A stretch of 64,000 nucleotides of DNA from an uncultured Prevotella sp. (GTDB lineage Bacteria > Bacteroidota > Bacteroidia > Bacteroidales > Bacteroidaceae). Location of the stretch: positions 1-64,000 of the forward strand of contig OMZM01000010.1 of assembly GCA_900315545.1 (NCBI GenBank), written 5' to 3'. The notes beneath the pieces were generated by a model, which saw only the letters and a program-made list of their open reading frames with translations, did no database searches and was not told where the DNA came from. Position numbers and translations under genes: made by a program. Below, in pieces: positions 9,671 through 54,643 of the stretch (the stretch's first letter is position 1; the number at the start of each line of letters is the position of its first letter).

Positions 9671-9943
9671 ATTTTTATGCCTTAATTTATACTTTTTTAA
9701 GAATAAAGACTGTTTTGCTGCCTGCTGCCGCTATGTTTCTTCATGAAATTTGCAGCATGCCGCTGACGAAAATGCTAATCAATTTTCGCCTGTTTACTGT
9801 CGCGAGAATGCCCTCGAAAGCCGTTTCAGAAATCAGAGGGGCAAAATATGCCCGAAATTCGCACTCTGTTGTAATCTCCTGACAATCTGCTTGTTATCTG
9901 CAAATATAGCATTTGTATGCAGAAAACGCATGTGTTAAAATTG

Positions 9944-10075
9944 TCAAAGACTATGTTTGAGATTGTCAAACAGTGTGTTTGAGGATGTCAGACATAGTGT
10001 TTCGGGGTGTCGGGCACAATGTTTTGCAGGGCAAAATAGACGAAATAGATGCCTCAAAGGTAGTCTTTGACAATT
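9944..10075. repeat. 22-bp phased array in element copy 1 (TCAAA-N7-TTTGA)
   Basis: Six in-phase units start at 9944, 9966, 9988, 10010, 10032 and 10054. Those at 9944, 9966 and 10054 have perfect TCAAA-N7-TTTGA, 9988 and 10010 are diverged and 10032 is weak. A perfect 20-bp inverted repeat encloses the array: 9934-9953 pairs with 10061-10080. Confidence 0.82.
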
Positions 10076-10207
10076 TTAACAGTTATGTTTTGGTGAGAAA
10101 TTAACATATCTTTGCAATTTCAGGAGCTGTAAAATTTCTATTTGGAGAGTTTTTCTGTGTCAAAAATTTTCATAATTTTTCGTCCCAAAAGAAAAATCCG
10201 TTCAGTT

Positions 10208-10223
10208 TGGCACACTTTTTGCT
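10208..10223 (+). promoter_or_regulatory. Sigma-54 promoter upstream of the DUF4105/Lnb gene
   Basis: TGGCACAC-TTT-TTGCT matches the sigma-54 consensus, with invariant GG (10209-10210) and GC (10221-10222) separated by ten bases. The predicted start of transcription is near 10234, about 70 nt before the start codon at 10305. The phased array lies 130-265 bp upstream, the usual range for enhancer-binding protein sites. Confidence 0.65.
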
Positions 10224-10264
10224 ATATATATTTATTTGTGTTAGGTTGAAACAAAATAATTGTT

Positions 10265-10272
10265 TACCTTTG
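10265..10272 (+). promoter_or_regulatory. Second, housekeeping-type -7 element before the DUF4105/Lnb gene
   Basis: TACCTTTG followed by CAG matches the -7 consensus; the -33 element is weak (TTG at 10246-10248, short spacing). Transcription would start near 10280 and give a short leader. Confidence 0.45.
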
Positions 10273-10304
10273 CAGAGTCATTTCACTGATGTAACATTGA
10301 CTGT

Positions 10305-11531
10305 ATGAAGACATTGAGCAAGAACGTATACCTGTCAGTGATGACCACCCTCCTGGTCATCACTTCCTCTTCGGCGAGCGCGTCGAGGCAGGATACAGGC
10401 GGGCAGCCTAACCCTCTCGATTCGGTTGAGATAAGCCTGCTGACGTGCGAGCCGTACAATAAGGTGTACAGCCTCTACGGTCATACAGCCATCCGCATCA
10501 ACGACATGGTTTCTGGCGAAGACCTTGCCGTGAACTACGGCGTGTTCGACTCCAGTGCCAAGAACTTTACGCTGCGCTTCATCTTCGGACTGACCGACTA
10601 CGAAGTGGGCATCTACCCTTTCGACATCTTCTGCCACGAATATGAGCGCGCAGGGCGCTACGTCAAGGAGCAGGTGCTCGACCTTACGGCAAGCGAGAAG
10701 CAGAAAATCATTCAGGACATAGCCGTCAACTCGCTGCAGGAGAACAAAGTCTACCGCTACAACATATTCTACAACAACTGCACCACCCGCGCCCGCGACG
10801 TCATTCTCGACAACATCGACGGCGAAATAGTCTTTGCCGAAAGCGAGAACCATCCGTCGTTCCGCCAGATGGTGCACAAATATACCAAGGGACACCGCTG
10901 GTCGGCATTCGGCAACGACATACTGCTGGGACTGAAGGCAGACGCCGAGACGACCAACTTCGAGCAGCAATTCCTGCCCGAAAGACTGCTGGCAGCATTC
11001 AGCACCGCCATGCGCGCCCGCGACAGCAACACGCAGACCCCGCTGGTGAAGGTAACGAGAGTGATAGTACCGTCGGCAGAAAAGGAGGCAGACAACAGCT
11101 TTCCGCTCACGCCGACACACGTTGGACTGATAATACTTGCCGTCGTCATAGCGCTGACCATAGCCGAACAACGCAGGAAGACATATTTCGCGGCACTCGA
11201 CGCCACAATATACCTTGTCTGCGGAGCCATAGGAATACTGCTGACGATGATGATATTCTCGCAACACCCTACGGTACAGGTCAACCTTCAGCTGTTGCTG
11301 TTCAACCCGCTGCCGCTGCTGTTCGGCTGGCAAGCCATCAGACGCAGGCAGAAAGGAAAGAGCCACTGGATGACAACAGCATGGATTTACATGATTTTCC
11401 TGTTCTTCATAGGCAGATACCTCCAGACTTATGCCGAAGGAACAGAATATATCGCTTTCGCCGTAGCAATAAGACTGCTGACGAGCAGGCACGTCTTACG
11501 CAAAAATAAACTAAAAAACGCCGGCAAATAG
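10305..11531 (+). CDS. lnb: DUF4105/Lnb-like protein, probable lipoprotein N-acyltransferase
   Basis: A 408-residue membrane protein: signal peptide or anchor (1-27), a periplasmic DUF4105 domain (about 35-230) and a C-terminal membrane domain of four or five helices (about 265-400). The periplasmic domain has the thiol-hydrolase-like pair expected of the family: His in LYGHTAIRI (about residue 65) and Cys in YNNCTTRARD (about 161). This two-part layout matches Lnb, reported in Bacteroides to N-acylate lipoproteins where E. coli-type Lnt is absent. Several DUF4105 paralogues can occur in one genome, so the enzymatic assignment is inference. It has two candidate promoters, sigma-54 and housekeeping. 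Confidence 0.75.
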   Translation: MKTLSKNVYLSVMTTLLVITSSSASASRQDTGGQPNPLDSVEISLLTCEPYNKVYSLYGHTAIRINDMVSGEDLAVNYGVFDSSAKNFTLRFIFGLTDYEVGIYPFDIFCHEYERAGRYVKEQVLDLTASEKQKIIQDIAVNSLQENKVYRYNIFYNNCTTRARDVILDNIDGEIVFAESENHPSFRQMVHKYTKGHRWSAFGNDILLGLKADAETTNFEQQFLPERLLAAFSTAMRARDSNTQTPLVKVTRVIVPSAEKEADNSFPLTPTHVGLIILAVVIALTIAEQRRKTYFAALDATIYLVCGAIGILLTMMIFSQHPTVQVNLQLLLFNPLPLLFGWQAIRRRQKGKSHWMTTAWIYMIFLFFIGRYLQTYAEGTEYIAFAVAIRLLTSRHVLRKNKLKNAGK

Positions 11532-11552
11532 CAGTAATACAAATATATTTGC

Positions 11553-11560
11553 TATCTTTG
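11553..11560 (+). promoter_or_regulatory. -7 element of secA promoter
   Basis: TATCTTTG at 11553-11560, followed by CA, matches the Bacteroidetes -7 consensus and lies 47 bp before the secA start. The -33 region is poor. Confidence 0.45.
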
Positions 11561-11607
11561 CACGAATTACATAACACAACGAATAACAATAAAGACAAAA
11601 TACAACA

Positions 11608-14600
11608 ATGGGATTTACAAACTTTCTGACATCACTGTTCGGCAACAAATCGAGCCGCGACATGAAACTCATACAGCCGTTAGTCGACAAGGTGAAAGCC
11701 GCCTACCCCGAGATACAGGCTCTGGACAACGACGCGCTGAGAGCCAAGACTAAAGAGATACAGAAATACGTTCAGGACTCTGCCAAAGACCTGAAAGAAA
11801 AAATAGAAGAACTGAAAGCAACCATCGAAGACACACCCATCGACCAGCGTGAAAGCATTTTCCACCAGATAGACAAGCTGGAGAAAGAAGCCCTCGAGAA
11901 ATACGAGGTCGCACTGAACGACGTGATGCCCGTTGCATTCAGCATCGTGAAGGAAACGGCACGCCGATTTGCCGAAAACGAAGAAACAATCGTTACGGCT
12001 ACCGACTTCGACCGCGAACTCGCCGCCGACCCAAGCAAAGACTTTATCACCATAGAAGGCGACAAGGCATACTACCACAACCACTGGACAGCCGGCGGAA
12101 ACGACCTGAAATGGGAAATGATACACTACGACGTACAGCTCTTCGGAGGCGAAGTGCTGCATCAGGGCAAGATAGCCGAAATGGCAACGGGTGAAGGAAA
12201 AACCCTCGTGGCAACACTGCCCGTCTTCCTCAACGCACTGACAGGCAACGGCGTACACGTCGTAACCGTCAACGACTACCTCGCAAAGCGCGACTCAGAG
12301 TGGATGGGCCCGCTCTACGAATTCAACGGCTTGAGCGTCGACTGCATCGACAAGCACCGCCCTAACTCGCCGGAACGCCGCAAGGCATACCAAGCCGACA
12401 TCACATTCGGTACGAACAACGAATTCGGCTTCGACTACCTGCGCGACAACATGGCTATCTCGCCGTCCGACCTCGTACAGCGCGCACACAACTACGCCAT
12501 AGTCGACGAGGTAGACTCAGTGCTCATCGACGATGCACGAACACCGCTCATCATCTCAGGACCAGTGCCGAAAGGCGACGACCAGATGTTTGAGGAATAC
12601 CAGCCACTGGTGGAGAAACTCGTAAACGTACAGCGCAAACTGGCAACCGAACTTCTTGCCGAAGCAAAGACGAAAATCAGCAAAGGCATAGAGACAAAGG
12701 ACGACAAGCTGCGCGACGAAGGATTTCTCGCCCTGTTCCGCTCATACAAGGCTCTGCCTAAGAACAAACCACTGATAAAATACCTGTCGGAGGAAGGCAT
12801 AAAGACAGGCATGCTGAAGACTGAGGAATACTATATGGCTGGCAACAACCGCGAAATGCCGAAAGCCATACAGCCACTCTACTTCGTAGTAGAGGAGAAA
12901 CTCAACTCATGCGATCTTACCGACAAGGGTACGGAATGGCTCGCCAATCAGGTCAACGACCGCGAACTGTTTGTCCTGCCCGACATTGCAGCACAAATGT
13001 CGGCACTCGAAGCAGAGCAAGGACTAAGCGAAGAGGAAATAGTAGAAAAGAAAGACGAACTGATGGCAAAATACTCCGTACAGAGCGAACGTGTGCACAC
13101 GCTGCAGCAACTGCTGAAAGCATACACCATGTTCAATAAAGATGACGAATATGTCGTTATCGACGGAGAAGTGAAAATCGTAGACGAACAGACCGGACGT
13201 ATAATGGAAGGCCGCCGATGGAGCGACGGACTGCATCAGGCTGTAGAGGCAAAGGAACACGTAAAGGTGGAAGCCGCAACGCAGACATTTGCCACAATCA
13301 CCCTGCAGAACTACTTCCGCATGTACCACAAGCTGGCAGGTATGACCGGTACGGCTATCACTGAGGCAGGCGAATTCTGGGACATCTACAAGCTCGACGT
13401 AGTGGAAATACCGACCAACAAGCCAGTAATACGCCACGACCTCGACGACCGCGTCTACAAGACAGCACGCGAGAAATACAATGCCGTAATCGAAGAGATT
13501 GTCGAAATGCGCAACGCAGGACGTCCGGTGCTTGTAGGTACGACATCGGTGGAAATATCTGAACTCCTCTCGCGCATGCTCAACATGCGCAACATACCGC
13601 ACAATGTGCTTAACGCCAAGCTGCACCAGCGAGAGGCTGACATCGTGGCACAGGCAGGACGAAGCACGCTCGGCATGACAACCATAACCGACGAAGACGG
13701 CAACACGCATCAGGAAGAGCGCATGCTCGGAGCCGTAACGATAGCAACCAACATGGCTGGTCGTGGTACCGACATCAAGCTGACACCAGAAGTGAAAGAA
13801 GCCGGCGGTCTGGCTATCATCGGTACAGAGCGCCACGAGAGCCGTCGAGTAGACAGACAGCTGCGCGGACGTTCCGGACGACAGGGAGATCCGGGAAGCT
13901 CTGTATTCTATGTGTCGTTTGAAGACAAACTGATGCGACTGTTTGCAGCCGAGCGCATATCGTCGTTCATGGACAAGCTCGGATTTAAGGAAGGCGACCG
14001 CCTCGAACACCCATATATATCGAAGAGCGTTGAGAGAGCGCAGAAGAAAGTTGAGGAAAACAACTTCGGCATACGTAAGCGCCTGCTCGAATACGACGAT
14101 GTGATGAACAAGCAGCGTACCGTAATCTACGAGAAACGCCACCACGCCCTTATCGGTGAGAGAATAGGCATGGACATCACGAATACGATATGGGACCGCG
14201 TCATAAACATCATCAACAACTATGACTATCAGGACTGCCGGGAAAGATTTATAAAGGTGTTCGCTATGGAATGTCCGTTCAGCGAAGAAGAATTCAACAG
14301 CACACCAAAGGACGAACTGCAGGAAAAAGCATTCCAAAAAACTATAGAAACCTTCAAGCGCAAGATGGAACGCATACAAAGCGTGGCATGGCCTATAATA
14401 AAACAAGTATATGAAAATCAAGGGCAGATGTATGAGCGCATCATGGTTCCGATTACCGACGGCAAGAAGGTGTACAACATAGGATGCAACCTGAAAGAAG
14501 CATACGAAACTGAATGCAAGTCAGTTGTGAAAGAATTTGAGAAGGCTATCATACTTCACATCATAGACGACTGCTGGAAAGAGAACCTGCGCGAACTTGA

Positions 14601-14988
14601 CGAACTGAAGCACAGCGTGCAGAACGCAAGCTACGAACAGAAAGACCCACTACTCATCTTCAAACTGGAAAGCGTGAAGATTTGGGACAACATGATAGAC
14701 GAACTAAACAACCGCACGACAAGCATCCTGATGAGAGGACAAATTCCAGAGATGCAGCAACAGGATGTGAAGGAGGCAGCACCAGAACAACGCTCTCAAA
14801 GATATACTGAGCAGAAAGACGACTTGGTTGACCATAACCAGCAGGCTGCTGCAAACCAAGACACACGCGAAACGGCAAGACAGCAAAAAACACAGCCTAT
14901 CATAAAGGACAAGATGCCGGGACGCAACGACCCGTGCCCTTGCGGAAGCGGAAAGAAGTTCAAGAACTGTCACGGACGCGGACTGTAA
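11608..14988 (+). CDS. secA: Preprotein translocase ATPase SecA
   Basis: A 1126-residue motor ATPase of the Sec translocon. Walker A is [10 protein letters not shown] (about 192-201), Walker [17 protein letters not shown], the second motor domain has [10 protein letters not shown] and the [15 protein letters not shown] motif. The C-terminus carries the zinc/SecB-binding tail [17 protein letters not shown]. It is about 220 residues longer than E. coli SecA; the extra length lies mainly in insertions within the motor region (about 305-425 and 450-520) as in other Bacteroidetes. Confidence 0.97.
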
Positions 14989-15002
14989 CAATTTGAAAAC
15001 AT

Positions 15003-15039
15003 GACTTCATAAGGTGTGAATACTGCACCTTGTGAAGTC
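15003..15039 (+). terminator. Hairpin after secA
   Basis: A 14-bp stem with one wobble (15003-15016 with 15026-15039) and a 9-nt loop, followed by TTTACTTAC. It probably ends or attenuates secA transcription before the ABC gene, whose ATG lies just beyond. Confidence 0.6.
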
Positions 15040-15055
15040 TTTACTTACATACATT

Positions 15056-15796
15056 ATGCTGAAAATAAACAACCTGAAAAAGAATTTTGGCGAAAAAACT
15101 GCCGTTGACATTGACAACTTTACTGTCAACAATGGCGATATACTCGGACTCGTAGGCAACAACGGAGCAGGAAAGACAACACTGTTCAGGCTGATTCTCG
15201 ACCTGCTGAAAGCCGACGAAGGCGAAGTGCTGATAAGAAAAGTATCAGAGAACGAGACCGACGGAAGCGAAACTTACATCAATCCAGCCCAAACAGAGGA
15301 ATGGAAAGACTTTACGGGCGCTTTCATCAACGACGGATTTCTGATTGACTTCCTAACACCTGAGGAATATTTTGAGTTTATCGGCAAGGTGGCAGGTATC
15401 GATAAAACGGTTTGTCAGGAAAAACTGAAAGAATATGACGACTTTATGGCAGGCGAGATAATGGGACAAAAGAAACTTATCAGAGACCTTTCTGCCGGAA
15501 ACAAACAGAAGGTCGGCATCATAGCAGCCCTGCTCGGAAACCCGAGACTGGTGGTACTCGATGAGCCGTTCAACTTTCTCGACCCTTCATCGCAGAACAT
15601 TCTGAAGACGATACTGAAGGAATACAGCCACAAGACTGGTGCCACGATGCTTGTGTCAAGCCATAACCTTACACACACTGTTGACATAAGCACATGCATT
15701 GCACTGATGGAGCAAGGCAAGATTATAAGAAACATCAGAAACGAGAATACCGACACCGCTAAGGAACTGGAAGAATACTTCAACAAGCAGGCTTAG
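15056..15796 (+). CDS. ABC transporter ATP-binding protein
   Basis: About 246 residues from the ATG at 15056; an in-frame GTG at 15032 lies inside the preceding hairpin and is a less likely start. Walker A is GNNGAGKTT, the signature LSAGNKQKVG and Walker B LVVLDEPFNFLDP, followed by SSHNLTHT containing the H-loop. It resembles the CcmA/NatA class that pairs with a separate membrane subunit. No permease gene is next to it, so the partner is elsewhere and the substrate is unknown. Confidence 0.87.
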   Translation: MLKINNLKKNFGEKTAVDIDNFTVNNGDILGLVGNNGAGKTTLFRLILDLLKADEGEVLIRKVSENETDGSETYINPAQTEEWKDFTGAFINDGFLIDFLTPEEYFEFIGKVAGIDKTVCQEKLKEYDDFMAGEIMGQKKLIRDLSAGNKQKVGIIAALLGNPRLVVLDEPFNFLDPSSQNILKTILKEYSHKTGATMLVSSHNLTHTVDISTCIALMEQGKIIRNIRNENTDTAKELEEYFNKQA

Positions 15797-15846
15797 CCAG
15801 TAACTGGAAATATCAGGCAGGAAATAAGAAAGCGGTAAGTACAAGG

Positions 15847-16479: not shown

Positions 16480-16557
16480 AATACATTATTATTTATATGC
16501 AAATATAGCAGATTATTTCCACAATGCCAAAATATTTACTTATTATTTTTTTTGTTT

Positions 16558-18480: not shown

Positions 18481-18486
18481 TTCAGC

Positions 18487-24252: not shown

Positions 24253-24462
24253 CCGGAAATAAATATTTAGGGAGTCTTTCTGCATAAAAAACACTAATCA
24301 ATTTTCGCCCGTTTACTGTCGCGAGAATGCCCGCGAAAGTCGTTTCCGAAATCTGAGGGGCAAAATATGCCCGTATTTCGCGTGCATCTGCAATCGTCTG
24401 ACAATCAGTTTGTTATCGTAAAACATACGACTTTTGTGCACGAAACACAAGTGTTAAAATTG

Positions 24463-24593
24463 TCAAAGAGCATGTTTGACATTGTCAAACACACTGTTTG
24501 AGGATGCCAAACATAGTGTTTGGGGCTCTCAGATGCTATGTTTTGCAAGCCAAAATACACAAATAAGCGCCTCAAAGATACTCTTTGACATTT
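24463..24593. repeat. 22-bp phased array in element copy 2 (TCAAA-N7-TTTGA)
   Basis: Units start at 24463, 24485, 24507 and 24529, exactly 22 bp apart, then a weak unit at 24551 and a perfect TCAAA-N7-TTTGA at 24572 (one base short of phase). An enclosing inverted repeat (24453-24470 with 24581-24598) has one mismatch. It differs from copy 1 by a paired C-to-G / G-to-C change that preserves pairing. Confidence 0.82.
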
Positions 24594-24725
24594 TTAACAC
24601 TTATCGCCGACCCGATTTTTTACAATTATTCACACTTTTAGCGACTGTTCCGCATCTATTTTGCAACTTTTTCCCTGTCAAAATTTTTCATCATTTTTCG
24701 ACCCGAAACAAAATTCTGACAAGTT

Positions 24726-24741
24726 TGGCACGGTTTTTGCA
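24726..24741 (+). promoter_or_regulatory. Sigma-54 promoter in element copy 2
   Basis: TGGCACGG-TTT-TTGCA fits the sigma-54 consensus at every defined position, GG at 24727-24728 and GC at 24739-24740. Predicted transcription start is near 24752, which would give the PA-domain gene a leader of about 300 nt, or produce a separate RNA. Confidence 0.68.
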
Positions 24742-25048: not shown

Positions 25049-26281
25049 ATGAAAAAAACTTTACTTCTTATGTTGCTCACGGCATTCACAGCCGTAGCAA
25101 GTTTCGCTCAGCCAGCAAAGCGCACCGAACTGCGCCACATCAGTTCTGAGCAACTCTCAAAGATGTTGGCAGCCAAGCCCAAAGACGTCAAGAACACCAG
25201 TGTTCCGTGCAAGGCATTTCAATCGCCTGCATCCGAACTCACCTTCACACCGTGGCCTGACTTCGAACTGACCTACGGCAACACCGATGGCGACGTTGCT
25301 GGCAACAAAAACGCACTGCTCAGCGGAATTACGGAACAGGGAGATGATGAGTACAACTATGCGAGCTTAGAGATTAACAACACCAACCTCGTCAATGTGG
25401 CAAACCCCGACGACCAACTGGTCATGGCGCTGCAATTCTTATGGGAGCCTACATATGAAAACCTGGAATACTACATCCCACTCTTGGTTGGCGGACAGGA
25501 ATTTGGATACACAGAGTCGAACTACAAAAACGAGAGCATTAAAACCCTCGCCGGTCAACGCCTGGAATACCTCTACATCGACAACTATGGCACGGACGAA
25601 GATTTCGCAAAAGTCAAGGATGCGCTCGCTGGAAAGATTGCTGTCTGCAACCGTGGCGAAGGTTCCTTCTCCATCAAAGCGAACGCCGCTATGGCAAACG
25701 GAGCCATCGGCATCATCGTCGTGAACAACACAGTAGGAGATGTCAGTATGGGTCTGGAGAATTACGAATACACTAACCCCGCCATTTCTGTCACAATGGA
25801 GACTGGTGCTCTGCTAAAAGACAATGCCGAATACGTTACCGACGGAGAAGCCCCCTACTATATCGGAACGCTTGAAATGGGTGAAGTGATGGCTAGACAG
25901 TTACCTGTACTTTTAGAATTCGGGAAATTCCGTTATAGTTTTGGTGAATTTGATAACTATATTAAAGACTATTCGATTAAGGCATTGGTTCCCGACTGGA
26001 CGAATGCAACGCCCGGAGCCACCTACAAAGCCACGATTACCTATTCCAATTGCAGATATCATTTATGGGATACTGATATAAATGGATATGATGTGCATTC
26101 AGTAGAGATTGGTACACCATCGACCACGGTGACCGTCGTCATCCCCGGAGGTGAGAATAGCATCTACGAGGTGAACGCCGACCGCAACGCAAACAGCCCG
26201 ACATACAACCTCATGGGCATCAGCGTAGGCAAGGAATACAAGGGCATCGTCATACAGAACGGAAAGAAAATCCTGCGATAA
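25049..26281 (+). CDS. Secreted PA-domain protein
   Basis: 410 residues with a signal peptide ending near residue 20 (ASFAQ). A protease-associated (PA) domain spans about 180-265 (GKIAVCNRGEGSF, NGAIGIIVVNN). No protease motif is present, so it is not itself an evident peptidase. The C-terminus YKGIVIQNGKKILR resembles the short C-terminal tag of other secreted Prevotella proteins, including two more in this window (49879, 63274). Segments near 25890-25985 and 26045-26110 are visibly more AT-rich than the rest, which may reflect recombination. Function is unknown; surface binding or T9SS-type sorting is inference. Confidence 0.7.
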   Translation: MKKTLLLMLLTAFTAVASFAQPAKRTELRHISSEQLSKMLAAKPKDVKNTSVPCKAFQSPASELTFTPWPDFELTYGNTDGDVAGNKNALLSGITEQGDDEYNYASLEINNTNLVNVANPDDQLVMALQFLWEPTYENLEYYIPLLVGGQEFGYTESNYKNESIKTLAGQRLEYLYIDNYGTDEDFAKVKDALAGKIAVCNRGEGSFSIKANAAMANGAIGIIVVNNTVGDVSMGLENYEYTNPAISVTMETGALLKDNAEYVTDGEAPYYIGTLEMGEVMARQLPVLLEFGKFRYSFGEFDNYIKDYSIKALVPDWTNATPGATYKATITYSNCRYHLWDTDINGYDVHSVEIGTPSTTVTVVIPGGENSIYEVNADRNANSPTYNLMGISVGKEYKGIVIQNGKKILR

Positions 26282-35302: not shown

Positions 35303-35412
35303 TTCCGGCAAAGCTGTAATCCTGTTACAGACCGTCTGTAAAAGCATTACAAGCACTCCGTCACACTGTTACAAATACTCCGTCACACTATTACAAGATT
35401 TCTGTAATCCTG
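35303..35412. repeat. 22-bp phased array B (TTACA-N7-TGTAA)
   Basis: Five units start at 35303, 35325, 35347, 35369 and 35391. The first has a degenerate left half (TTCCG) and two middle units have CGTCA in place of TGTAA. A TTACAGGATTT half-unit precedes the array 11 bp out of phase, as in the array at 54261. No sigma-54 site is evident nearby. Between 35111 and 35302 I see nothing else except a small AAGCC-AAAA-GGCTT hairpin near 35263. Confidence 0.82.
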
Positions 35413-36198: not shown

Positions 36199-36220
36199 CA
36201 CCCGACTGAGCACGATGCTT

Positions 36221-36303
36221 TGTTAAGGGGTGCCTGCTGTTGCAGGCTGAGATTAAACCCTCTGACCTGACCCAGATAATGCTGGCGTAGGGATAACGAT
36301 TAT
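36221..36303 (+). promoter_or_regulatory. TPP riboswitch (THI element)
   Basis: The conserved blocks are in order: GGGGTGCC, GCTGAGAT, AAACCCT, GACCTGACCCAGATAATGC and TGGCGTAGGGA. The P3-type stem is formed by CCTGCTGTTGCAGG. It lies about 50 nt upstream of the TonB receptor start and should lower expression of the receptor and PnuT when thiamine diphosphate is plentiful. A clear terminator is not visible, so control may be translational. Confidence 0.96.
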
Positions 36304-36352
36304 CTTATTTCCCCCCTTTTTTATGTTTTTTAAATATTAAATAAGGTAAAAG

Positions 36353-45594: not shown

Positions 45595-45622
45595 CAAATA
45601 ATATATATTATAGTTATCCTTT

Positions 45623-45991: not shown

Positions 45992-46009
45992 CGTTGCACA
46001 ACTTTGTTA

Positions 46010-48586
46010 TTATCCGCAGCGCGATGCACCGCAACTCTTACATATCAGGCATCCCTCCTGATATACCAGCGACTCATTTCCGCATGCAGGGCATTTCTGT
46101 CCTTTGGCTTCCGTTCCGTCAGTTACATACTTCTTCAGTGCGCGTTCAACACCGTTTTTCCATGTGTTGATGCTTTCGCTCTGCAGTTGCAGCGAGCTGA
46201 CAAGTTTTATCACGTGGTCTATCGGCATGCGATAGCGTAGCACGCCTGATATGAGTTTGGCATAGTTCCAGTATTCCGGATTAAACTTCTCGCTCAGTCC
46301 TTCCACTGTAGTCTTGTATCCTCGTTTGTTCTCAAACTGGAAGTCATAGCGCTTTGTTCCGTCCTCATTAGTTTGCTTTATAATCTTGCCTTTCGTTACC
46401 GTTTTCGGCAAAACGATACCTTCGTCATCGTCCTGCAAACCAGTAAATATCTCGTATGGATATCCGTCGAGCAGTCCAACGAAAGCCACCCATTTCTCTT
46501 TATTGTTCTGGAAGCGTACTACATCGCACTCGAGCACACTAGGGCGTGTTTCCGTTACGGTAGGATGCTTGCACGGCTTGTCCTCGTTTTCTGCTATATC
46601 GTTGTCGTTTTGCGTTCCTTCTTTCTTCTTGTCGTCTTTCTTCACAGCCACCATTACACCTGCGCGGCTTCCGTCGCGGTAGATAGTACAGCCCTTGCAT
46701 CCCGACCTCCATGCTTCCACATACAGACGGTTGACAAGTTCCTCGTTGACGTCGTTAGGCAGGTTTACCGTTACGCTTATCGAGTGGTCAACCCAGCGCT
46801 GTATTGCGCCCTGCATCTTCACCTTCATCAGCCAGTCTACATCGTTTGCCGTTGCCTTATAGTAAGGTGAGCGTTCCACCAGTTCGTCTATTTCTTCCTG
46901 ACTATAGCGCTTGTCGGTGTCTATGTTGTTTGTCTTCATCCATTGCAGGAACTTCGGATGATATACAATATATTCTTCAAACGAGTCGCCTACTTCGTCT
47001 ACGAAGTCCACATGCACGTTTGTATCATTCGGGTTAACCTTTCTGCGACGTTTATATACAGGCATGAACACTGGTTCTATTCCGCTTGTTGTCTGCGTCA
47101 TCAGCGACGTTGTTCCTGTCGGTGCTATTGTCAGACATGCTATGTTGCGGCGTCCATACTTCACCATATCCTTATACATATCTTCGTCTGCCTCCTTCAG
47201 TCTCAGTATGAAAGGATTGTTTTTCTCGCGTTTGGCATCGAAGACGCTGAATGCTCCGCGCTCTTTCGCCATGACTACCGACGAGCCGTAGGCTGCGAGA
47301 GCCAGTGTGCGGTGCACCTCTACAGAGAAGTCTGTTGCTTCCTGTGTGCCATAGCGCAGTCCCATAGCAGCTATCATGTCGCCCTCTGCGGTTATGCCGA
47401 CACCTGTACGGCGTCCCTTGCCGCTCTTAGAGTAGATTTTCTCCCACAGATGATACTCTGAGTTCTTCACTTCATCCGACTGCGGGTCTTTCTTTATCTT
47501 GTCCATGATGCACTCTATCTTCTCCAGTTCGAGGTCTACAATATCATCCATGATGCGCTGTGCTTTGGCAACATGTTCCTTAAACAGGTAGAAATCGAAG
47601 TAAGCATCCTTAGTGAATGGGTTTACGACGTATGAATATAAGTTTATCGACAGCAGTCGGCATGAGTCGTACGGACAGAGTGGAATCTCTCCGCATGGGT
47701 TTGTAGATATAGTACGGAAGCCCAAGTCGGCATAGCAGTCTGGTATGCTTTCGCGTATTATCGTGTCCCAGAACAGCACTCCCGGCTCTGCGCTCTGCCA
47801 TGCGTTGTGTACAATCTTCTGCCAAAGGTTTCTTGCCTTGATAGTTTTCTCAAAGTCAGGCTTATTGCTGTCTATCGGGAACTGCTGCTTGTAGTCCTTG
47901 TTGTCTATTGCAGCATTCATAAACTCATCGTCTATGCGCACCGATACATTTGCTCCCGTAACCTTTCCTTCGGTCATCTTTGCATCTATGAATGCCTCCG
48001 AGTCCGGATGCTTTATGCTTACCGAGAGCATCAGCGCACCGCGTCTGCCGTCCTGTGCCACTTCGCGCGTACTGTTGCTATAACGTTCCATGAACGGCAC
48101 AAGACCTGTCGATGTCAGTGCCGAGTTGTTCACGGGCGAGCCTTTCGGTCTGATGTGCGACAGGTCGTGTCCCACACCTCCGCGACGTTTCATCAGCTGC
48201 ACCTGCTCCTCGTCTATGCGCATTATCGCGCCGTAAGAGTCGGCATCGCCGTCAAGACCAATTACGAAACAGTTGCTCAGCGAAGCAACCTGGAAGTCGT
48301 TGCCTATTCCTGTCATAGGGCTTCCTGCCGGAACGATATATCTGAAATGGTCAAGCAGCTGGAATATCTCACTTGTTGACATCGGGTTTGGATATTTCTG
48401 CTCTATGCGTGATATTTCGTTTGCCAGACGGTTGTGCATGTCTTCAGGCGACTGTTCGTATATATTTCCGAAACTGTCCTTCATTGCATACTTGTTCACC
48501 CACACGCGGGCAGCAAGTTCGTCGCCGTCAAAATATTTCAGAGAGGCATCAAACGCTTCATCGTAACTGTAAGTCTTGTTTTTCAT
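46010..48586 (-). CDS. nrdJ: Class II (adenosylcobalamin-dependent) ribonucleotide reductase
   Basis: 858 residues in one chain. Class features: VASLSNCFVIG with an active-site Cys, NPCGEIPLCPYDSC with the thiyl-radical Cys, and TIAPTGTTSLM in the barrel. Residues about 825-858 form a zinc-ribbon-like C-terminus (CPACGNESLV, CLICKSCGASRCG). It makes deoxyribonucleotides using B12 and does not need oxygen. No cobalamin riboswitch is visible upstream. Confidence 0.93.
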   Translation of the reverse strand: MKNKTYSYDEAFDASLKYFDGDELAARVWVNKYAMKDSFGNIYEQSPEDMHNRLANEISRIEQKYPNPMSTSEIFQLLDHFRYIVPAGSPMTGIGNDFQVASLSNCFVIGLDGDADSYGAIMRIDEEQVQLMKRRGGVGHDLSHIRPKGSPVNNSALTSTGLVPFMERYSNSTREVAQDGRRGALMLSVSIKHPDSEAFIDAKMTEGKVTGANVSVRIDDEFMNAAIDNKDYKQQFPIDSNKPDFEKTIKARNLWQKIVHNAWQSAEPGVLFWDTIIRESIPDCYADLGFRTISTNPCGEIPLCPYDSCRLLSINLYSYVVNPFTKDAYFDFYLFKEHVAKAQRIMDDIVDLELEKIECIMDKIKKDPQSDEVKNSEYHLWEKIYSKSGKGRRTGVGITAEGDMIAAMGLRYGTQEATDFSVEVHRTLALAAYGSSVVMAKERGAFSVFDAKREKNNPFILRLKEADEDMYKDMVKYGRRNIACLTIAPTGTTSLMTQTTSGIEPVFMPVYKRRRKVNPNDTNVHVDFVDEVGDSFEEYIVYHPKFLQWMKTNNIDTDKRYSQEEIDELVERSPYYKATANDVDWLMKVKMQGAIQRWVDHSISVTVNLPNDVNEELVNRLYVEAWRSGCKGCTIYRDGSRAGVMVAVKKDDKKKEGTQNDNDIAENEDKPCKHPTVTETRPSVLECDVVRFQNNKEKWVAFVGLLDGYPYEIFTGLQDDDEGIVLPKTVTKGKIIKQTNEDGTKRYDFQFENKRGYKTTVEGLSEKFNPEYWNYAKLISGVLRYRMPIDHVIKLVSSLQLQSESINTWKNGVERALKKYVTDGTEAKGQKCPACGNESLVYQEGCLICKSCGASRCG

Positions 48587-48719
48587 TGGTATAATATAAT
48601 ATGTTATAGCTTTAATATGTTTATTTATTTGTAAATCCCTTCATTAAGTACAAGAATAAAAAACCTTCTTTTTAGCAAATACAGGGTCCGTATATAAGCA
48701 TATCGGAATATATTTTTTG

Positions 48720-48750
48720 CAAAGATACAACAATATGTTGATATAGAAAA
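48720..48750 (-). promoter_or_regulatory. Promoter of class II RNR gene
   Basis: On the minus strand TTTT, 19 bp and TATCTTTG (complement of 48720-48727), followed by CAAA. The leader to the start codon would be about 125 nt and AT-rich. Confidence 0.55.
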
Positions 48751-48850
48751 ATCTTTTTTAGGAAACTTGTAAACATTTTTTCGCGAGAAAGTTTCCCAAA
48801 TCGTTCAACTTCGTTATCTGTCAGCGTGTTAGCAATATATCATTAATTAT

Positions 48851-48922
48851 AACCTTAACGGGAACGGGGACGGGAACATTAAAGTTAGCGTTCCAGTTAA
48901 GATTCCCGTTCCCGTTAAGGTT
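48851..48922 (-). terminator. Long hairpin with GGGAAC-type repeats after truncated MFS gene
   Basis: A perfect 18-bp inverted repeat (AACCTTAACGGGAACGGG, 48851-48868, with 48905-48922) flanks a 36-nt loop that itself contains shuffled copies of GTTCC and GTTAA blocks. It lies 30 bp beyond the truncated MFS stop. It may act as terminator or be a small dispersed repeat; no clear T run follows. Confidence 0.5.
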
Positions 48923-48951
48923 AGCGTTTCCGCCCGTGCTCCATAATTCCC

Positions 48952-49488
48952 CTACTCTGGCGGCAGACTTTGGAAATGTCTGGTAGAATATACCTGTAGC
49001 AGATACGCCACGCAAAGCATTACACCTATCTTGTATGCGGCAGCTACGTCGTCGGTAAACAATGTCTTCGACAGCGGTAGTACGACTATCGGCGACAGGA
49101 ATTGTCCGAGATACAACGCAGCCGACAACAGTGGCATTATCAGCCCGACGCTTATACCGAGCACGGCACGCAAAAAGAGCAGCACATATATATTGTCTGC
49201 AAAGAAGCATCCTGCCCCAGACACGACATAGAGCATCAGTCCCGTCGCGGCTATCGTGCGTGTTCGCAGCCGTCGGCTTATCGACATGAAGAAAAGATTG
49301 GTAACTATTATCAGTAAGGCTGGTATGCTTACTATCAGTTGCACCATCATCTCAGGTGCATCAGCAAAATGAGCTTTAATGATTCCCAGTGCCGGGGCTA
49401 TGGCTGCTCCTGCCATAACGGTGAGCAGCGACATCGACAGAATGGTAGCCGTCACCCGATTTGTAACTTCATTTTTATTCATTATCAT
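48952..49488 (-). pseudogene. MFS transporter with internal deletion
   Basis: 178 residues where the family has about 400. Residues 1-120 are the first four helices of an MFS drug-efflux-like carrier (ALGIIKAHF, ISRRLRTRTIAATGLML, GLIMP). They join in frame directly to LLSAALYLGQFLSPIVVLPLS, which corresponds to the last two helices. About 220 residues are missing, so transport activity is unlikely. Confidence 0.75.
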
Positions 49489-49673
49489 TGTGGAGTTATT
49501 TCAGGGAGACGTCCCGCAGCTCTGCCAAGCTGGTTTTACATTATTAATATATTATATTGTGCGTGCAAAGGTACGAAAAACATCCGTAATGCAGAAATGA
49601 AAACAAAAAAAGGATACGTCTGTCATCACGACAGTAGTATCCTCAAAAGAATTAAATTCATTGAAGGTTATAT

Positions 49674-49865
49674 TTATTCAGGCCATGAAAAGTCTTCGTT
49701 ATATGATTCTTCAAAGTATTCGTCGTCTTCTTCGTTCTTTTCCTCATCATCGAATGTATGCTCGTTGGCATCCATCCAGTTATAAGGATTACTTCTTGCA
49801 ATGAAATCCTCAGTAGGAACACTGATTACATCTGTTTGTGGTATTATATATTTATTCTTCTTCAT
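49674..49865 (-). CDS. Small acidic protein of the MKKxYIxP type
   Basis: 63 residues: MKKNKYIIPQTDVISVPTED followed by a very acidic second half (FDDEEKNEEDDEYFEE). It starts 13 bp after the stop of the 1251-residue secreted protein and is presumably in the same operon. Short proteins beginning MKKxYIxP are frequent in Bacteroidales beside secreted or surface proteins; no function is known to me. No signal peptide. Confidence 0.65.
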   Translation of the reverse strand: MKKNKYIIPQTDVISVPTEDFIARSNPYNWMDANEHTFDDEEKNEEDDEYFEESYNEDFSWPE

Positions 49866-49878
49866 CGTTTCGTCAAAT

Positions 49879-52800
49879 TTATTTAATTACAACTTTCTTA
49901 CCGTTTACAATATAGATTCCCTTAGTCAGTGTCCTGCCCATTTCCTCAAGGTTGAGCATGCCAACAGGACGGCCGTCGATGGTATAGACCATGTCGGTCT
50001 CGTATGTTCGTGCCTCTGGAGCGTCTATGCCTGTCGTGTCGCTGTTGGTACCGAACATGATGCTGAACGTGAGTGCAGGGTGTGCGCCGCCGCTTGTCTT
50101 GCAGTCATACCATGAACGGAACGGCAGACCGTTCAGGACTGTGTATTCGTCGTTAAGGCTCAGCGTGTTGAGGAACTTGCCCTGTGCCATGTAGAACGCG
50201 CCTTCTGACTTCGGAACTACTACTCCGCCGAATGTTCCGCAGTGTGTGAACTGATAGTCTACTCCGCTAATCTTGCCCCATGCCTGCTCGCCGGTGAGTA
50301 TTTCCTTAGCCACTGCCTCGTCTGCTGCGTGCGATGCCTTGCGCGGGGTTGCCTTTACAGTGGCGCCAGTCTGCTCTGCCACGAGAGTGATGTTGTCAAG
50401 ACCCGTGTCGTTGTACACCTCAAACAGGTAAGGCACGTTGGCTTCGGACTGCATTATTACCTTGTCCGACTTCAGTGCGCCGAAATATCCTACGGCACCC
50501 GTTTCCAGGTCAGACTTATTAATGCTAAGACAGTTTGTAGTGTTCATGGTGAAGAGCTTGAACTCGCCGCGTCCCTGCTGGTCTTTGTGTATGCCGTCGG
50601 CATCCACAGCAAGGTTGAACGGCAGCATCAGAGTGCCACACTTGGTCTTTTCGTACTTGCCTATGGTTATCTCGCGCTCGTAAGTTACTTTGTTCATTGC
50701 TCCCACACTTATGTCGTATGGTGCGAAGAACGGCGTGCGGTCTCTGAGAACGATATCTTCAGTAGCCATATATCCACCTCCTTCGGCTTTGTAGGCATAG
50801 TTGTCGCCCTCGTGCATCATTTCCAGTGGCAGGTAGAATATCACGTTTCTCCTGTCATTAGGCACATCTTCATTGCTCATCTGTCTTCTGAATGTCTCCA
50901 GACCGTCGTAGCTACCTGTGTTTGTAGAGAATATGAGTGTAGACATGTCGCTGGCATCCATGTAGAGTATGTCTTTGAGGCTTTCGGGTGTCTTTATGCT
51001 GCCGTCGGCTATTTCCTCGAGCATCTTGTCGCGTATCACGCTTACGGGCAGGTAGCCTGCTTCCGGCTCTTCTGTTTTCACCTTCACGCCCCACTTGCTG
51101 TTTACGTGCATGTTTGGAGCCTGATAGTCTATTGCCTCATACAGTTTCTCCCATGTCAGTATCGGCGTGAAGTCCTTAGTTACGAGGGTCAGCTCTATGT
51201 CGTAGTAAGCATACATGCGGTGTTCCGTTGCCCTTGTCGGAGCGATGTTGTAGCGTGGCTCGTCTGCCACGAACAGGTATGCGTGCTTCGACTCGTCTTC
51301 ATACATTTGCAGGCGGTGGAAGTTACCTGCAGGATATCCTATAAGGTAGCCATCCACGCTTGTCTGTGTCTGGTTGTGATAAGTGTCGAGCGTGAAAGGA
51401 TACTTGTGCAGCGTTCTGATCTTCACTCGTTCCGACTCAGAAGTATAGTCGTGGTCGAGCTCGTCGGCGTTGGTGAAGTAGAATGGCTGCGTTCCGCAGA
51501 GCAGAGAGTTAACCTTTTCGGTATAGTCGGCAGGAACTGCCACCGTAGGCTCTGTTATGTCGTACACATTCTTATATATTGCCCTGTCCTTGCTGTCGCT
51601 CAGTCCGTAGTATTCCGAGCCTACTATCATCTGGCGTGCTTCTTTGTTGTATTTGCCGTTGTAGTATGTGTTGTCGAGATACTTAGAGCGTACATTCTTG
51701 AACGAGAACGTGCATGGCATGAAGTCAGACCAGTTCTCCGGCACATAGAATCTGAAGTCGGAGCCGCTCATCGTGAAGTCGGAGATGACGAACGAGTGTG
51801 TCAGTCTCTTCAGCTTGTCTTCTGTTATCTGGCTTTCCGGCAGCGAGTTCTCACATTCTATTTCCACGCTGTTGATGTATGGGTCGAGCGGCTGTATGTC
51901 TAAGTCGAACGTCATCAGCGCACGGTAGGCGTCGCCTTCAGGCAGACCGCTGATTTCAAACTTCACTGCGTCGTTGTTGAAGTCGTTGAACGAGAAGGTT
52001 CCCTTGTTGTTGCTGCTGCTGACTGTGATAGGTGCGAGTGCGTTGCCTTCCTTGTCGTAGGGAGTCAGCGTCCAGTCGCTTGCCGTATATGCAGGCTGAC
52101 TGTTGGTGCGGGTTTTCTGCTCTGAATTCCATGTAGAGCCATTGCCTGATGTACCTGTCTGGGCAACCTTATAGGCATGGAGCTCGTCGTTCCACTCAGG
52201 ATAGACATAATATCTATTGTTTCCTAATCTTATGTGCTTATCTTTGGGGAATGCAAAAATCGTGTATCCGGCTCCAGACACATAGTCTGTATTTCCTGTC
52301 AGTTTTGAGTTTGGTCGATATACGCCAACTGAATAACTAAAAATACCACTTCTATTATACACAAGATACGTATATTCTCCGTCCTGCTCGTGGAAGATTC
52401 TTCCCTTATCGTCTTTTTGCCACAGCTTAGTCATTGTTTCTCCTGGCTGCCGGCGTACGTATCTGCCTGACGGGTGCAGGTAGTAGACTGACGTACCCTG
52501 GCTTGCGTCGTTGTCTATGTTCAGCGTGCTTTGTATGCTGAACATTCCTTCGTTTTCTATAATATTTTCGTTTATTGCGGCACGGTCAGTACCACGATAG
52601 TAGTTCAGTTCGCCGCCCATGATGCGGTAGCCTAAAGGGTCGTGGTTACCGTGAGTGGTTACCACTTCTACAGGTGTCTCTATATAATATGTACCGTTTT
52701 TCAGTGCATAGAATCTCTTGTCTGTTCCGTCGCGGTGGGTTTCCTTTGTTATGGTTGCAGCCGCAGCCACGTCCTCCACCTTGCCGCCGACAACGGAGCC

Positions 52801-53634
52801 CTCGTTGTAGAGCGTCATATCGGCATTGAGTTCCTCTACTTCATGATACTCGTAGGCGTTGTGGTATGCTCCTCCCTGTGTTCTCAGGCGCACGTCGCCT
52901 AATGCCAACATACCGGTCTCGAACGGAACCTCCACATGGCTCTTTGCCGTTGCATCGTTAGTTTCTGGCGTCATATTGACAGGAATGTCGCCGTCGGCAG
53001 AGAAATATACGACGAAGTTTACTATTCTCAGATGTCGTTCTTTCGAACGACCAATTCTTTCAAGTTTGAAATTAAGTACGTTAGTAGCATCTGAAGGGTT
53101 GAGCACTGTTCTGCTAATGTTATATTCCTTGCTATCTTCCCTGCTTGAGCCTACTGTTATACTTGTCAGCTCTGTACTGAAACCGCTTGTTGTCTCGCTG
53201 AATTTACATCCATAGCCAACACTTGCTTCTTCAAAGGTTGAAGGTATATCGTTTTTCAGCGTCATTGTGTATCCGAGAATTCTAAATCCGTCACTCATTG
53301 CAAGCTGATAGAATGCGTCATCACCTGCAACCGCGATTACGAGATTTCCCGAGTCGTCGAAAATCATGTTGCATGCATGCGAGCGCAAATATCCATGAGA
53401 ATTCAATTCAGGATGGTCGCTGACAAAAAATTTCACCGGCGCCTGGTTGTGCCACCACATGGATTTCCAACCCTTTCCCTGATAGAAACCAAATTCCTCC
53501 TCAAGTCCCAAACCTGCAATTAGTCGGCCTGTCTCAGCCGACACCTTTACGTTCTGTGCCGAAATGGTCGACACTGCGAAAGCAAAGAGTAATAATGATA
53601 CTATTGTCCTTAACCTGTTTGTAGTAACTTTCAT
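49879..53634 (-). CDS. Large secreted protein with C-terminal GIYIVNGKK tag
   Basis: 1251 residues with a signal peptide ending TISAQN (about residue 27). No known enzymatic motif is recognised; the sequence is beta-rich with many aromatic residues. Near the C-terminus, VTYEREITIGKYEKTKCG and TLMLPFNLAVD resemble a segment of the protein at 63274, and the end TIDGRPVGMLN to KGIYIVNGKKVVIK is a tag shared with it. A surface or T9SS-sorted protein is likely; function unknown. A TACTTTTGC -7 element lies about 50 bp upstream. Confidence 0.7.
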   Translation of the reverse strand: MKVTTNRLRTIVSLLLFAFAVSTISAQNVKVSAETGRLIAGLGLEEEFGFYQGKGWKSMWWHNQAPVKFFVSDHPELNSHGYLRSHACNMIFDDSGNLVIAVAGDDAFYQLAMSDGFRILGYTMTLKNDIPSTFEEASVGYGCKFSETTSGFSTELTSITVGSSREDSKEYNISRTVLNPSDATNVLNFKLERIGRSKERHLRIVNFVVYFSADGDIPVNMTPETNDATAKSHVEVPFETGMLALGDVRLRTQGGAYHNAYEYHEVEELNADMTLYNEGSVVGGKVEDVAAAATITKETHRDGTDKRFYALKNGTYYIETPVEVVTTHGNHDPLGYRIMGGELNYYRGTDRAAINENIIENEGMFSIQSTLNIDNDASQGTSVYYLHPSGRYVRRQPGETMTKLWQKDDKGRIFHEQDGEYTYLVYNRSGIFSYSVGVYRPNSKLTGNTDYVSGAGYTIFAFPKDKHIRLGNNRYYVYPEWNDELHAYKVAQTGTSGNGSTWNSEQKTRTNSQPAYTASDWTLTPYDKEGNALAPITVSSSNNKGTFSFNDFNNDAVKFEISGLPEGDAYRALMTFDLDIQPLDPYINSVEIECENSLPESQITEDKLKRLTHSFVISDFTMSGSDFRFYVPENWSDFMPCTFSFKNVRSKYLDNTYYNGKYNKEARQMIVGSEYYGLSDSKDRAIYKNVYDITEPTVAVPADYTEKVNSLLCGTQPFYFTNADELDHDYTSESERVKIRTLHKYPFTLDTYHNQTQTSVDGYLIGYPAGNFHRLQMYEDESKHAYLFVADEPRYNIAPTRATEHRMYAYYDIELTLVTKDFTPILTWEKLYEAIDYQAPNMHVNSKWGVKVKTEEPEAGYLPVSVIRDKMLEEIADGSIKTPESLKDILYMDASDMSTLIFSTNTGSYDGLETFRRQMSNEDVPNDRRNVIFYLPLEMMHEGDNYAYKAEGGGYMATEDIVLRDRTPFFAPYDISVGAMNKVTYEREITIGKYEKTKCGTLMLPFNLAVDADGIHKDQQGRGEFKLFTMNTTNCLSINKSDLETGAVGYFGALKSDKVIMQSEANVPYLFEVYNDTGLDNITLVAEQTGATVKATPRKASHAADEAVAKEILTGEQAWGKISGVDYQFTHCGTFGGVVVPKSEGAFYMAQGKFLNTLSLNDEYTVLNGLPFRSWYDCKTSGGAHPALTFSIMFGTNSDTTGIDAPEARTYETDMVYTIDGRPVGMLNLEEMGRTLTKGIYIVNGKKVVIK

Positions 53635-53817
53635 AATCGCTTCACAATGTGTTTAATTCTATATTATTTTTCAATTCGCACGGCAAAAGTATAAAAAATC
53701 CTTAACAACCACCCCCCGACCTGTTAATTATAGTTAACGAACCTTTCTTTTAACAAAAGTAAGATTTATTTAACGCTGCATTTAAACTTCGCCAGCGTCT
53801 GTATTGCTGTCGTCAGG

Positions 53818-53961
53818 ACAAAGAAAAACAGCAGCGATTCTCATCGCGGCTGTTGTCATATTATCAATATGGGTAGATTGTTTTTTAATAATTTGAAAAT
53901 TTGGAAATCAGTCTTACTATCAACTAATGTACAATTAAGAAATTATTTACTACTAATCATC
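53818..53961 (-). ncRNA. Candidate small RNA or attenuated leader
   Basis: A minus-strand promoter (TTTG, complement of 53996-53999; 20 bp; TATCTTTG, complement of 53968-53975) is followed about 120 bp later by a 12-bp stem with one mismatch (53827-53838 with 53843-53854) and a T-rich tract. There is no ORF between. This fits an independent RNA of roughly 140 nt, or an attenuated leader for the 1251-residue protein gene, which also has its own promoter. Confidence 0.4.
53827..53854 (-). terminator. Intrinsic terminator of candidate small RNA
   Basis: Read on the minus strand: AACAGCCGCGAT, loop GAGA, ATCGCTGCTGTT, then TTTCTTTG. The stem has a single A-G mismatch. Confidence 0.7.
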
Positions 53962-54260
53962 ACATGGCAAAGATAATGCATTATTATCAGAAATGCAAAT
54001 TTTCTGCGACTTTTCTTTCGATTTATTTTATTTTTCCGTCAGAAAGCTACATTTTAACACACAAAACAGTGCGTTGCCGAACTTTCGCCAGCAGCATGCC
54101 GGAGAATGAAAGTATAATCAATTTTCGACTGTTTACTGTCGCGAGAGTGCCCGCGAAAGTCGTTACGAAATATTTTTCGGCAAATACGCGAGTATTTCGG
54201 CTTATCGGCTAAGTCGTTGGATATCAGTATTTTGACACCAAAACACGGATTACAGGATTT

Positions 54261-54414
54261 TTACAAGCATCTTGTAATCCTATTACAGATACTCCGTCAC
54301 ACCCTTACAAACACTCTGTAACGATATGACAGCCAACCCGTAATCGTGCAAAAACGTGCAGTTTCCTGCCTCAAACATGCTCTTTGACATTTTTAGCACG
54401 CATGTTTGAGGTCG
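54261..54414. repeat. 22-bp phased array switching half-site type
   Basis: Units start at 54261, 54283, 54305, 54327, 54349, 54371 and 54393, all 22 bp apart. The first four are TTACA/TGTAA type (54283 and 54327 diverged), 54349 is weak, 54371 is a perfect TCAAA-N7-TTTGA and 54393 keeps TTTGA. CCTCAAACATGC (54369-54380) pairs perfectly with 54400-54411. Confidence 0.82.
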
Positions 54415-54524
54415 ATTTTTGCATATTTTCACAGTTTCATGGGCTGTTCCGCATCTATTTGGAGAGTTTTCCCGTGTCAAAATTTTTCATCGTTTTTCGC
54501 CCCGAAAGAAAATCCTGACGAGTT

Positions 54525-54540
54525 TGGCACGGTTTTTGCA
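54525..54540 (+). promoter_or_regulatory. Sigma-54 promoter in element copy 3
   Basis: TGGCACGG-TTT-TTGCA, identical to copy 2, GG at 54526-54527 and GC at 54538-54539. Predicted start near 54551, giving hflX a leader of about 160 nt. Confidence 0.68.
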
Positions 54541-54643
54541 GGGGAAGAAAACATCAGCCATAAAGTCAACCATAACAGCTATGCAGAAACTGCTGAGTAT
54601 AACGTGTTAATTCTTACACTTTACTAAAATTTCTGTGTTTTAT

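Follow-up and report, generated by a model that had tools for sequence, protein, structure and literature searches.

Intergenic elements in a 64,000-nucleotide Prevotella window

The window analysed here is a stretch of 64,000 nucleotides from an uncultured Prevotella sp. (assembly GCA_900315545.1, contig OMZM01000010.1). It belongs to contig C35 of a 2.29 Mb draft genome that comprises 56 contigs and is 92% complete. The window carries three related intergenic elements, each with an array of palindromes followed by a sigma-54-type promoter box. An earlier note on this DNA had read them as likely sigma-54 promoters with phased enhancer arrays, possibly forming a regulon or a mobile regulatory cassette. 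The three elements are present in the order and orientation that it gave, all on the plus strand and with flanks common to all (Table 1). The arrays upstream consist of 17-bp palindromes with a period of 22 bp. As the note had also noticed, GG and GC are separated by ten bases in all three boxes. The identities proposed for the downstream genes (Lnb-like, PA-domain and hflX) were upheld by Pfam domains.

The half-sites are not the same in all three arrays, a difference absent from the note: arrays 1 and 2 have TCAAA..TTTGA (type A), while array 3 has TTACA..TGTAA (type B). In array 1 the units at 9988 and 10010 are degenerate, and its extra unit lies within a 39-bp inverted repeat (9923-9961 / 10053-10091). 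A scan of the window for period-22 palindrome arrays (threshold 50) found five, compared with none in three shuffles. The count of three elements was thus real but incomplete, as the window also contains free arrays and the family occupies more than 140 known places in the genome. The free array at 3881 is without a full box, but TTTTGGCACG comes after it.

Table 1. Elements, arrays, boxes and downstream genes in the window.
Feature	Position	Strand	Details
Free type-B array	3881..3963		four perfect units; ~30 bp past a stop codon
Element 1, complete type A (from the TAATCA end through the box)	9776..10222	+	profile 442.8 bits
Array 1, four 17-bp palindromes TCAAA-N7-TTTGA, period 22	9944..10026		units at 9944, 9966, 9988, 10010
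Extra unit of array 1	10054..10070		110 bp (5 x 22) further on
Sigma-54-type box of element 1	10206..10222	+	TTTGGCACACTTTTTGC
TAnnTTTG motif, probably serving the Lnb-like gene as its own promoter	10265..10272	+	TACCTTTG; sequence and class statistics
Gene after element 1	10305..11531	+	Lnb_N and Lnb transmembrane domain (Pfam)
Element 2, type A, whole	24295..24740	+	profile 464.1 bits
Array 2, four palindromes	24463..24545		units at 24463, 24485, 24507, 24529
Extra unit of array 2	24572-24588		109 bp further on
Sigma-54-type box of element 2	24724..24740	+	TTTGGCACGGTTTTTGC
Gene after element 2	25049..26281	+	PA domain (Pfam)
Free type-B array, without box	35303..35407		five units, first degenerate
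Element 3, type-B array inside A-type flanks	54115..54539	+	profile 301.2 bits
Array 3, TTACA-N7-TGTAA, period 22	54261..54343		units at 54261, 54283, 54305, 54327
A-type unit beyond array 3	54371-54387		110 bp further on
Sigma-54-type box of element 3	54523..54539	+	TTTGGCACGGTTTTTGC
Gene after element 3	54712..55968	+	HflX-type GTPase, GTP-bdg_N/M and MMR_HSR1 (Pfam)

The elements form a large dispersed family

The exact box TTTGGCACNNTTTTTGC has 93 matches in the genome, compared with none for the reversed pattern, and 91 of these are accompanied by at least part of an intergenic element of ~450 bp. The remaining two boxes, judged by eye to be without the element body, are C45:17155, at grpE, and C7:1056, where the right end alone is present. 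They were kept in the 93-row set used for gene orientation and the 84-copy set used for sequence identity, and C7:1056 is counted among 141 family places. A further 31 places carry TTTTTGTNG, in which position -12 is GT instead of GC, giving 31 of 124 exact boxes with GT (GG is present in 124/124 by the search pattern). These 93 + 31 boxes bear out the idea of a mobile regulatory cassette as far as dispersal goes, and no further.

Searching with the conserved arms of the element gave 276 matches with at most two mismatches (69 for the reversed pattern). The best 100 of the 276 were used, all of them exact and all on contigs C2-C20; copies in which both arms and box are altered may be missed. 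This search recovered 26 further loci, comprising 15 with an altered box (12 with GT), eight without a box and three cut by a contig end. A search for type-B arrays, together with reading of the window, gave at least 24 among the matches listed (that at C35:35.35 kb comes from window reading). B arrays replace A arrays within the same flanks, and at least 11 free arrays have no box.

Sufficient upstream sequence for alignment was available for 84 of the 93 boxes, of which 62 entered alignment A1, with most B-type and odd copies left out. The body is conserved from TAATCA to the box; beyond it the sequences are mostly unrelated, with some related pairs that have 57-74 bp past the box in common. 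Pairwise identity is 70% on average (median 74%), and the body is exactly 452 bp long in 45 of the 84 copies. The elements mostly lie between open reading frame (ORF) calls, which are longest ORFs made with no trained gene finder. Their length (~450 bp) and number (>100 copies) resemble those of miniature inverted-repeat transposable elements (MITEs).

The assembly often breaks at the elements, as 17 contigs begin or end within ~500 bases of one (C2, C5, C8, C12, C16, C17, C18, C21, C22, C23, C25, C26, C30, C36, C50, C51 and C56).

Arrays are built on a regular 22-bp period

Within units 1 and 2 of the A arrays, 749 of 750 base pairs are paired. The right-arm motif is found 123 bp from where the TGTCAAA of unit 1 begins in 61 of 73 copies and 122 bp from it in 10, which places the right-arm palindrome in the 22-bp register. 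Together, the paired units and the register of the right arm indicate half-sites every ~11 bp in alternating orientation. The asymmetric 7-bp core of unit 2 occurs in both orientations (CACACTG in 49 and CAGTGTG in 21 of 75 copies), as do the cores of B arrays. Cores that read both ways fit a putative dimer that is indifferent to the core.

Arrays are evenly spaced along the chromosome

The spacing of A and B arrays together was analysed on nine contigs, namely seven with exact arms, C35 (read whole) and C29 (read from 16 to 75 kb), the last of which entered the set with four arrays found in its own gap. These contigs hold 64 sites and 55 gaps, with a minimum of 4.1, a median of 11.3 and a maximum of 29.6 kb. 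No gap is shorter than 4 kb (15.8 expected) and 46 of the 55 fall between 6 and 16 kb. The coefficient of variation (CV) is 0.38, compared with 0.92 for uniform placement, 0.88 for placement in gene-boundary slots and 0.76 for slots between three-gene operons. The lowest CV among 4000 sets per null was 0.64 (uniform), 0.53 (gene-boundary) and 0.53 (operon), all above the observed value.

Other samples agree in their lack of short gaps. For A elements, none of 37 gaps on the seven exact-arm contigs is below 4 kb (10.1 expected) and, among the matches listed, one of 78 on 18 contigs (19.2 expected). Across 21 contigs, again among the matches listed, there is one gap below 4 kb in 99 (27.1 expected) and the CV is 0.58 vs 0.92. 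A pair of a full and a partial element on C17, near 146.6 and 146.8 kb, was treated as one site. One close pair, 1.4 kb apart, was kept; it is on C38, outside the nine-contig set.

Free B arrays occupy the long gaps between A elements. Of the 24 B arrays used, 20 are on contigs of known length with A elements; among the matches listed, 19 of these keep a distance of 6 kb or more to the closest A element and the twentieth is at 5.9 kb, where chance would place 11.2 of 20 closer than 6 kb. The two largest gaps were read afterwards and contained six further arrays. Four are A arrays in the 60-kb gap of C29 (29.0, 38.9, 54.0 and 66.1 kb), and two are in the 47-kb gap of C26 (86.5 and 100.8 kb), which was read to 104 kb, leaving 104-110.6 kb outside the reading. 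The stretches read on C17, on C18 and from 64 to 84 kb on C26 held no array. An even or regional layout is what chromosome-organising sites would be expected to have, and the layout observed here is even.

Period-22 arrays with other half-sites occur in relatives

Relatives were examined with a detector that is blind to sequence (threshold 50), for which three shuffles each gave zero. Among periods of 18-26 bp, 22 is the outstanding one in three of four same-genus genomes sampled: clearly so in G056 (24 peaks vs 0-8 at the other periods) and G033 (8 vs 0-1), and weakly in G005 (9 vs 0-3). By eye, the half-sites are GCACC..GGTGC and TTTTCATGAAAA in G056, TGAAY..RTTCA and GTATG..CATAC in G033, and CGACC..GGTCG and CAAA..TTTG in G005.

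The element itself has a narrow distribution. A 20-mer from its left flank matched one record in a collection of ~85,000 species that may leave out the source genome, and the left-flank pattern had no matches in viral contigs. The record is a contig of the uncultured Prevotella RUG753; over 1.8 kb, including the flanks, it shows a 97% match to the source genome. In the RUG753 genome the exact box is absent and two places come within one mismatch of it, so this contig may be misbinned. Its copy (L127:6399-6751) is orthologous to that of L073, with similarity ending inside the array at ~6657; the sequence past this point had no Rfam match at the gathering score.

A putative role in chromosome organisation

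We propose that the arrays are putative protein-bound chromosome-organising sites, a reading to which we give a probability of roughly one half. Half-sites that recur at roughly one per turn of the helix, each reversed relative to the last, would lie on one face of the DNA. Two interchangeable kinds of array, A in the ~450-bp elements and B mostly free, would provide such a site every ~11 kb. A dimeric DNA-binding protein would load on each array and then organise or mark several kb on either side, possibly as a loop anchor, as a nucleation point for a nucleoid protein or by recruiting a topoisomerase. A second array close to an existing one would bring no benefit and would not be kept, and an empty stretch would become filled, with selection acting on retention. 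Even spacing spans two unlike array types, which suggests that it is the array, and not its vehicle, that is spaced. More tentatively, the arrays may belong to a genus-wide, evenly spaced period-22 lattice read by fast-evolving proteins of several specificities, a new system of chromosome folding or domain marking in which arrays are interchangeable and turn over between species. If true, evenly placed binding arrays would amount to a ready map of domain borders. The family also cautions against inferring a regulon from a flawless sigma-54 box next to an array. Little seems to be known about chromosome organisation in the Prevotella group, on which our literature search gave nothing relevant. 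None of the papers listed in the search described period-22 arrays at even distances, with most subscription papers outside its reach.

Several observations weigh against an organising role. The protein, its reach, its function and the retention of arrays by selection are all inferred. The genome is a draft in 56 contigs, for most of which the count is limited to copies whose arm or box is exact, and array-free stretches of 22-30 kb persist on C17, C18 and C26. Even spacing in the relatives is weaker than in the source genome and suggestive only: in G056 the smallest gap is significant (p 0.003) and the CV is not low (p 0.79), in G033 the p values are 0.02 and 0.035, and G005 has no significant evenness. 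In these comparisons only peaks above 93% AT were dropped, and the peaks retained include at least one that is AT-rich and doubtful (G033, 132.2 kb). A 40-kb sample of G075, the fourth same-genus genome, had no period-22 array at a threshold of 20, at which the palindrome scan detected one of the five arrays in the window. Finally, conserved positions across species were considered and rejected: using an array list edited by eye, 1 of 27 positions was conserved, equal to the control with the other gene end (1/27). One A element has both its neighbours adjacent in G005, where these are divergent genes 241 bp apart.

The main rival to the organising-site reading is transposition with target immunity, in which the elements would be non-autonomous mobile DNA, bound insertion machinery would repel new copies and the spacing would be a by-product. 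Many dispersed copies, confined to the source genome and the one RUG753 contig, are what it predicts, as are positions that differ between species and copy pairs whose similarity continues past the box. We nevertheless consider it unlikely. Across 81 copies the ends have no terminal inverted repeats (7.5/20 vs 7.1 shuffled) and no target duplication (the best excess, over many offsets, is a dinucleotide in 4.8 copies), and a MITE with such features was rejected on these grounds. A search confined to the Y1 family found no transposase in the genome; the same search gives matches in 5 of 14 control genomes. In addition, unlike A and B arrays exclude each other, which immunity of a single site would not bring about, and diverged copies keep their length, which favours the organising-site reading.

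The box is a native sigma-54 sequence but probably not the promoter of a regulon

Sigma-54 promoters have the consensus TGGCAC-N5-TTGC. An rpoN gene, which the earlier note had suggested looking for, is present on C29 (E 7.6e-47). So is the enhancer-binding protein that it called for: the genome encodes one full-length sigma-54 activator domain, in addition to three partial AAA matches. Pfam matches in the activator comprise AAA+ and a Fis-type HTH, with none to a receiver domain. The element-free box at C45 (L090) lies 33 bp upstream of the start of grpE, which is followed by dnaJ, and an identical box is upstream of grpE in a relative. In an even draw of 120 other genomes from the family, nine had boxes, one or two each and ten in all; among same-genus genomes, one of six has a single box. 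The protein downstream was tested for eight of the ten (L109 and L110 were left out). Six were recognised (RsfS, a Clp-type AAA protein, two OEP efflux proteins, SecA and GrpE) and two had no Pfam match at E 1e-8. As the same sequence stands upstream of grpE and other genes without an element, the box sequence is a native sigma-54 promoter sequence of the lineage, in line with the earlier identification. The literature on sigma-54 made no mention of Prevotella among the matches listed. Separately, the boxes before grpE-dnaJ here and at loci L105-L114 in the family genomes (grpE, Clp-type AAA, secA, rsfS, OEP) raise the possibility of a sigma-54 stress and envelope regulon in the Bacteroidaceae.

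The view of the arrays as enhancers fared less well. All 11 element-free boxes lack, in the 400 bp upstream, any A or B palindrome with 1/10 mismatches or fewer; the closest unit has two mismatches in four cases and three in the rest. Free arrays are without a box, and B arrays can take the place of A arrays between the same flanks. The activator is 65-76% identical over the aligned part in four same-genus genomes, and its recognition helix, S(D/A)RTLYR(K/R), is nearly unchanged in relatives with quite different arrays. Further, less similar activators occur in G005, G033 and G075; G056 has one match, as does the source genome. Considering the conserved helix, the differing arrays and the element-free boxes without units, the sigma-54 activator is probably not what binds the arrays.

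We then considered the genes downstream. The motif TAnnTTTG, which we take to be the Bacteroidetes -7 promoter element, lies between box and gene in 41 of 52 co-oriented genes situated 40-500 bp downstream, compared with 4.6 by shuffling and eight on the other strand of the same set. By eye it is present in all three intergenic regions of the window (10265, 24916 and 54667). Downstream genes are co-oriented in 59 of 90 cases and on the opposite strand in 31, a mild bias (two-sided binomial p 0.004). Elements lie between divergent genes in 27 of 80 cases, with no clear excess over intergenic gaps of at least 300 bp (7/29).

These data bear on the second rival explanation, a sigma-54 regulon or mobile promoter, in which an enhancer-binding protein on the array would activate RpoN polymerase for the next gene. 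The identity of the box with native boxes upstream of grpE, the presence of rpoN and an activator, and the bias towards co-oriented genes speak for it. Set against these are the TAnnTTTG motifs that most co-oriented genes have of their own, the opposite-strand genes facing 31 of 90 boxes, GT in place of GC in a quarter of exact boxes, the altered or missing boxes at the arm-derived loci and on free arrays, and the conserved activator helix; even spacing is not predicted either. We regard this explanation as improbable, and a regulon of three members was rejected, given the 93 boxes, the opposite-strand genes and the genes' own motifs. The box is a real promoter sequence but probably does not act as the chief promoter of the gene that follows; as part of the A element, it may drive conditional outward transcription at some sites.

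A structured RNA, in which the plus strand would be transcribed and the palindromes would form hairpins, is very unlikely: mismatched pairs in units 3 and 4 of the A arrays are G.T in 260 cases and A.C in 22, as if plus-strand wobble were tolerated, and RNAalifold predicts a long outer stem, with 10 of 56 pairs preserved through a two-sided change in one copy or more, but the 282 mismatches are not independent because the copies are related, 41 arrays of type B or from relatives show equal numbers of the two mismatches (73 G.T, 78 A.C; eight of 49 arrays gave no run), the covariation term is only -1.28 kcal/mol, and the elements have no Rfam match.

A further candidate, a second RpoN-like protein near the window, was rejected. 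The Sigma54_DBD match at C35:70004 is weak and the protein has HTH_38 and rve domains. The gene, outside the window at C35:69377-70351 (L158:5377-6351), reads as an IS30-like transposase, and the Sigma54_DBD match is probably false.

Comparison with known systems

The elements share box sequence and spacing with sigma-54 promoters, from which they differ in that one box in four reads GT at -12, and in having a dispersed 450-bp body and downstream genes that mostly possess another promoter motif. The sites of SlmA, Noc and MatP and the parS sites are palindromic protein-binding sites that occur singly or in regional clusters and have one conserved motif. Palindromes scattered over the chromosome (here putative protein sites) are common to both; the Prevotella arrays differ in being phased and evenly distanced and in having interchangeable motifs.

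Our literature search on Prevotella 22-bp palindromic arrays and dispersed repeats found one relevant system among the matches listed, BrickBuilt. This MITE, reported from P. gingivalis and P. gulae, has 19 copies and is proposed to be a mobile promoter, with a 23-nt repeat (AGAYCATARTATCCTCTCRTRTG) in variable number (1-22.8) and IS5-like terminal repeats (PMC4596501). The same text notes 41-, 23- and 22-nt tandem repeats in strain W83, their places not being given (PMC4596501). Both families are dispersed and intergenic in Bacteroidales, with a leader, tandem repeats of ~22-23 nt and a tail. The BrickBuilt repeat reads as non-palindromic, and its repeat, ends and copy number are unlike those of the Prevotella family; the words sigma and rpoN are absent from the text. 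Inspection of the Prevotella elements by eye showed neither its 23-nt repeat nor its ends of the GAGACC.. type.

REP/BIME sequences are, according to the abstract of the report, species-specific alternating intergenic palindromes in more than 100 copies, linked to RAYT and proposed to have a role in chromosome organisation (PMC2817692). All of these traits except the RAYT link are shared with the Prevotella family, which is distinguished by its period of 22, by several types of half-site and by the lack of a RAYT/Y1 transposase among our matches. That abstract makes no mention of even genomic spacing (PMC2817692). Identity with REP/RAYT was rejected, given zero Y1 matches in the 92%-complete genome.

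Other observations

A thiamine pyrophosphate (TPP) riboswitch is present in the window at 36216-36310 (74.2 bits). In a subclass of elements the box is followed by runs of the AACGNN type (AACGGGAACGATAACC...), several of them at contig ends (L012, L023, L044, L054, L069, L071, L074, L081, L089 and others). An isolated 18-bp repeat of similar make-up lies in the window at 48879-48932.

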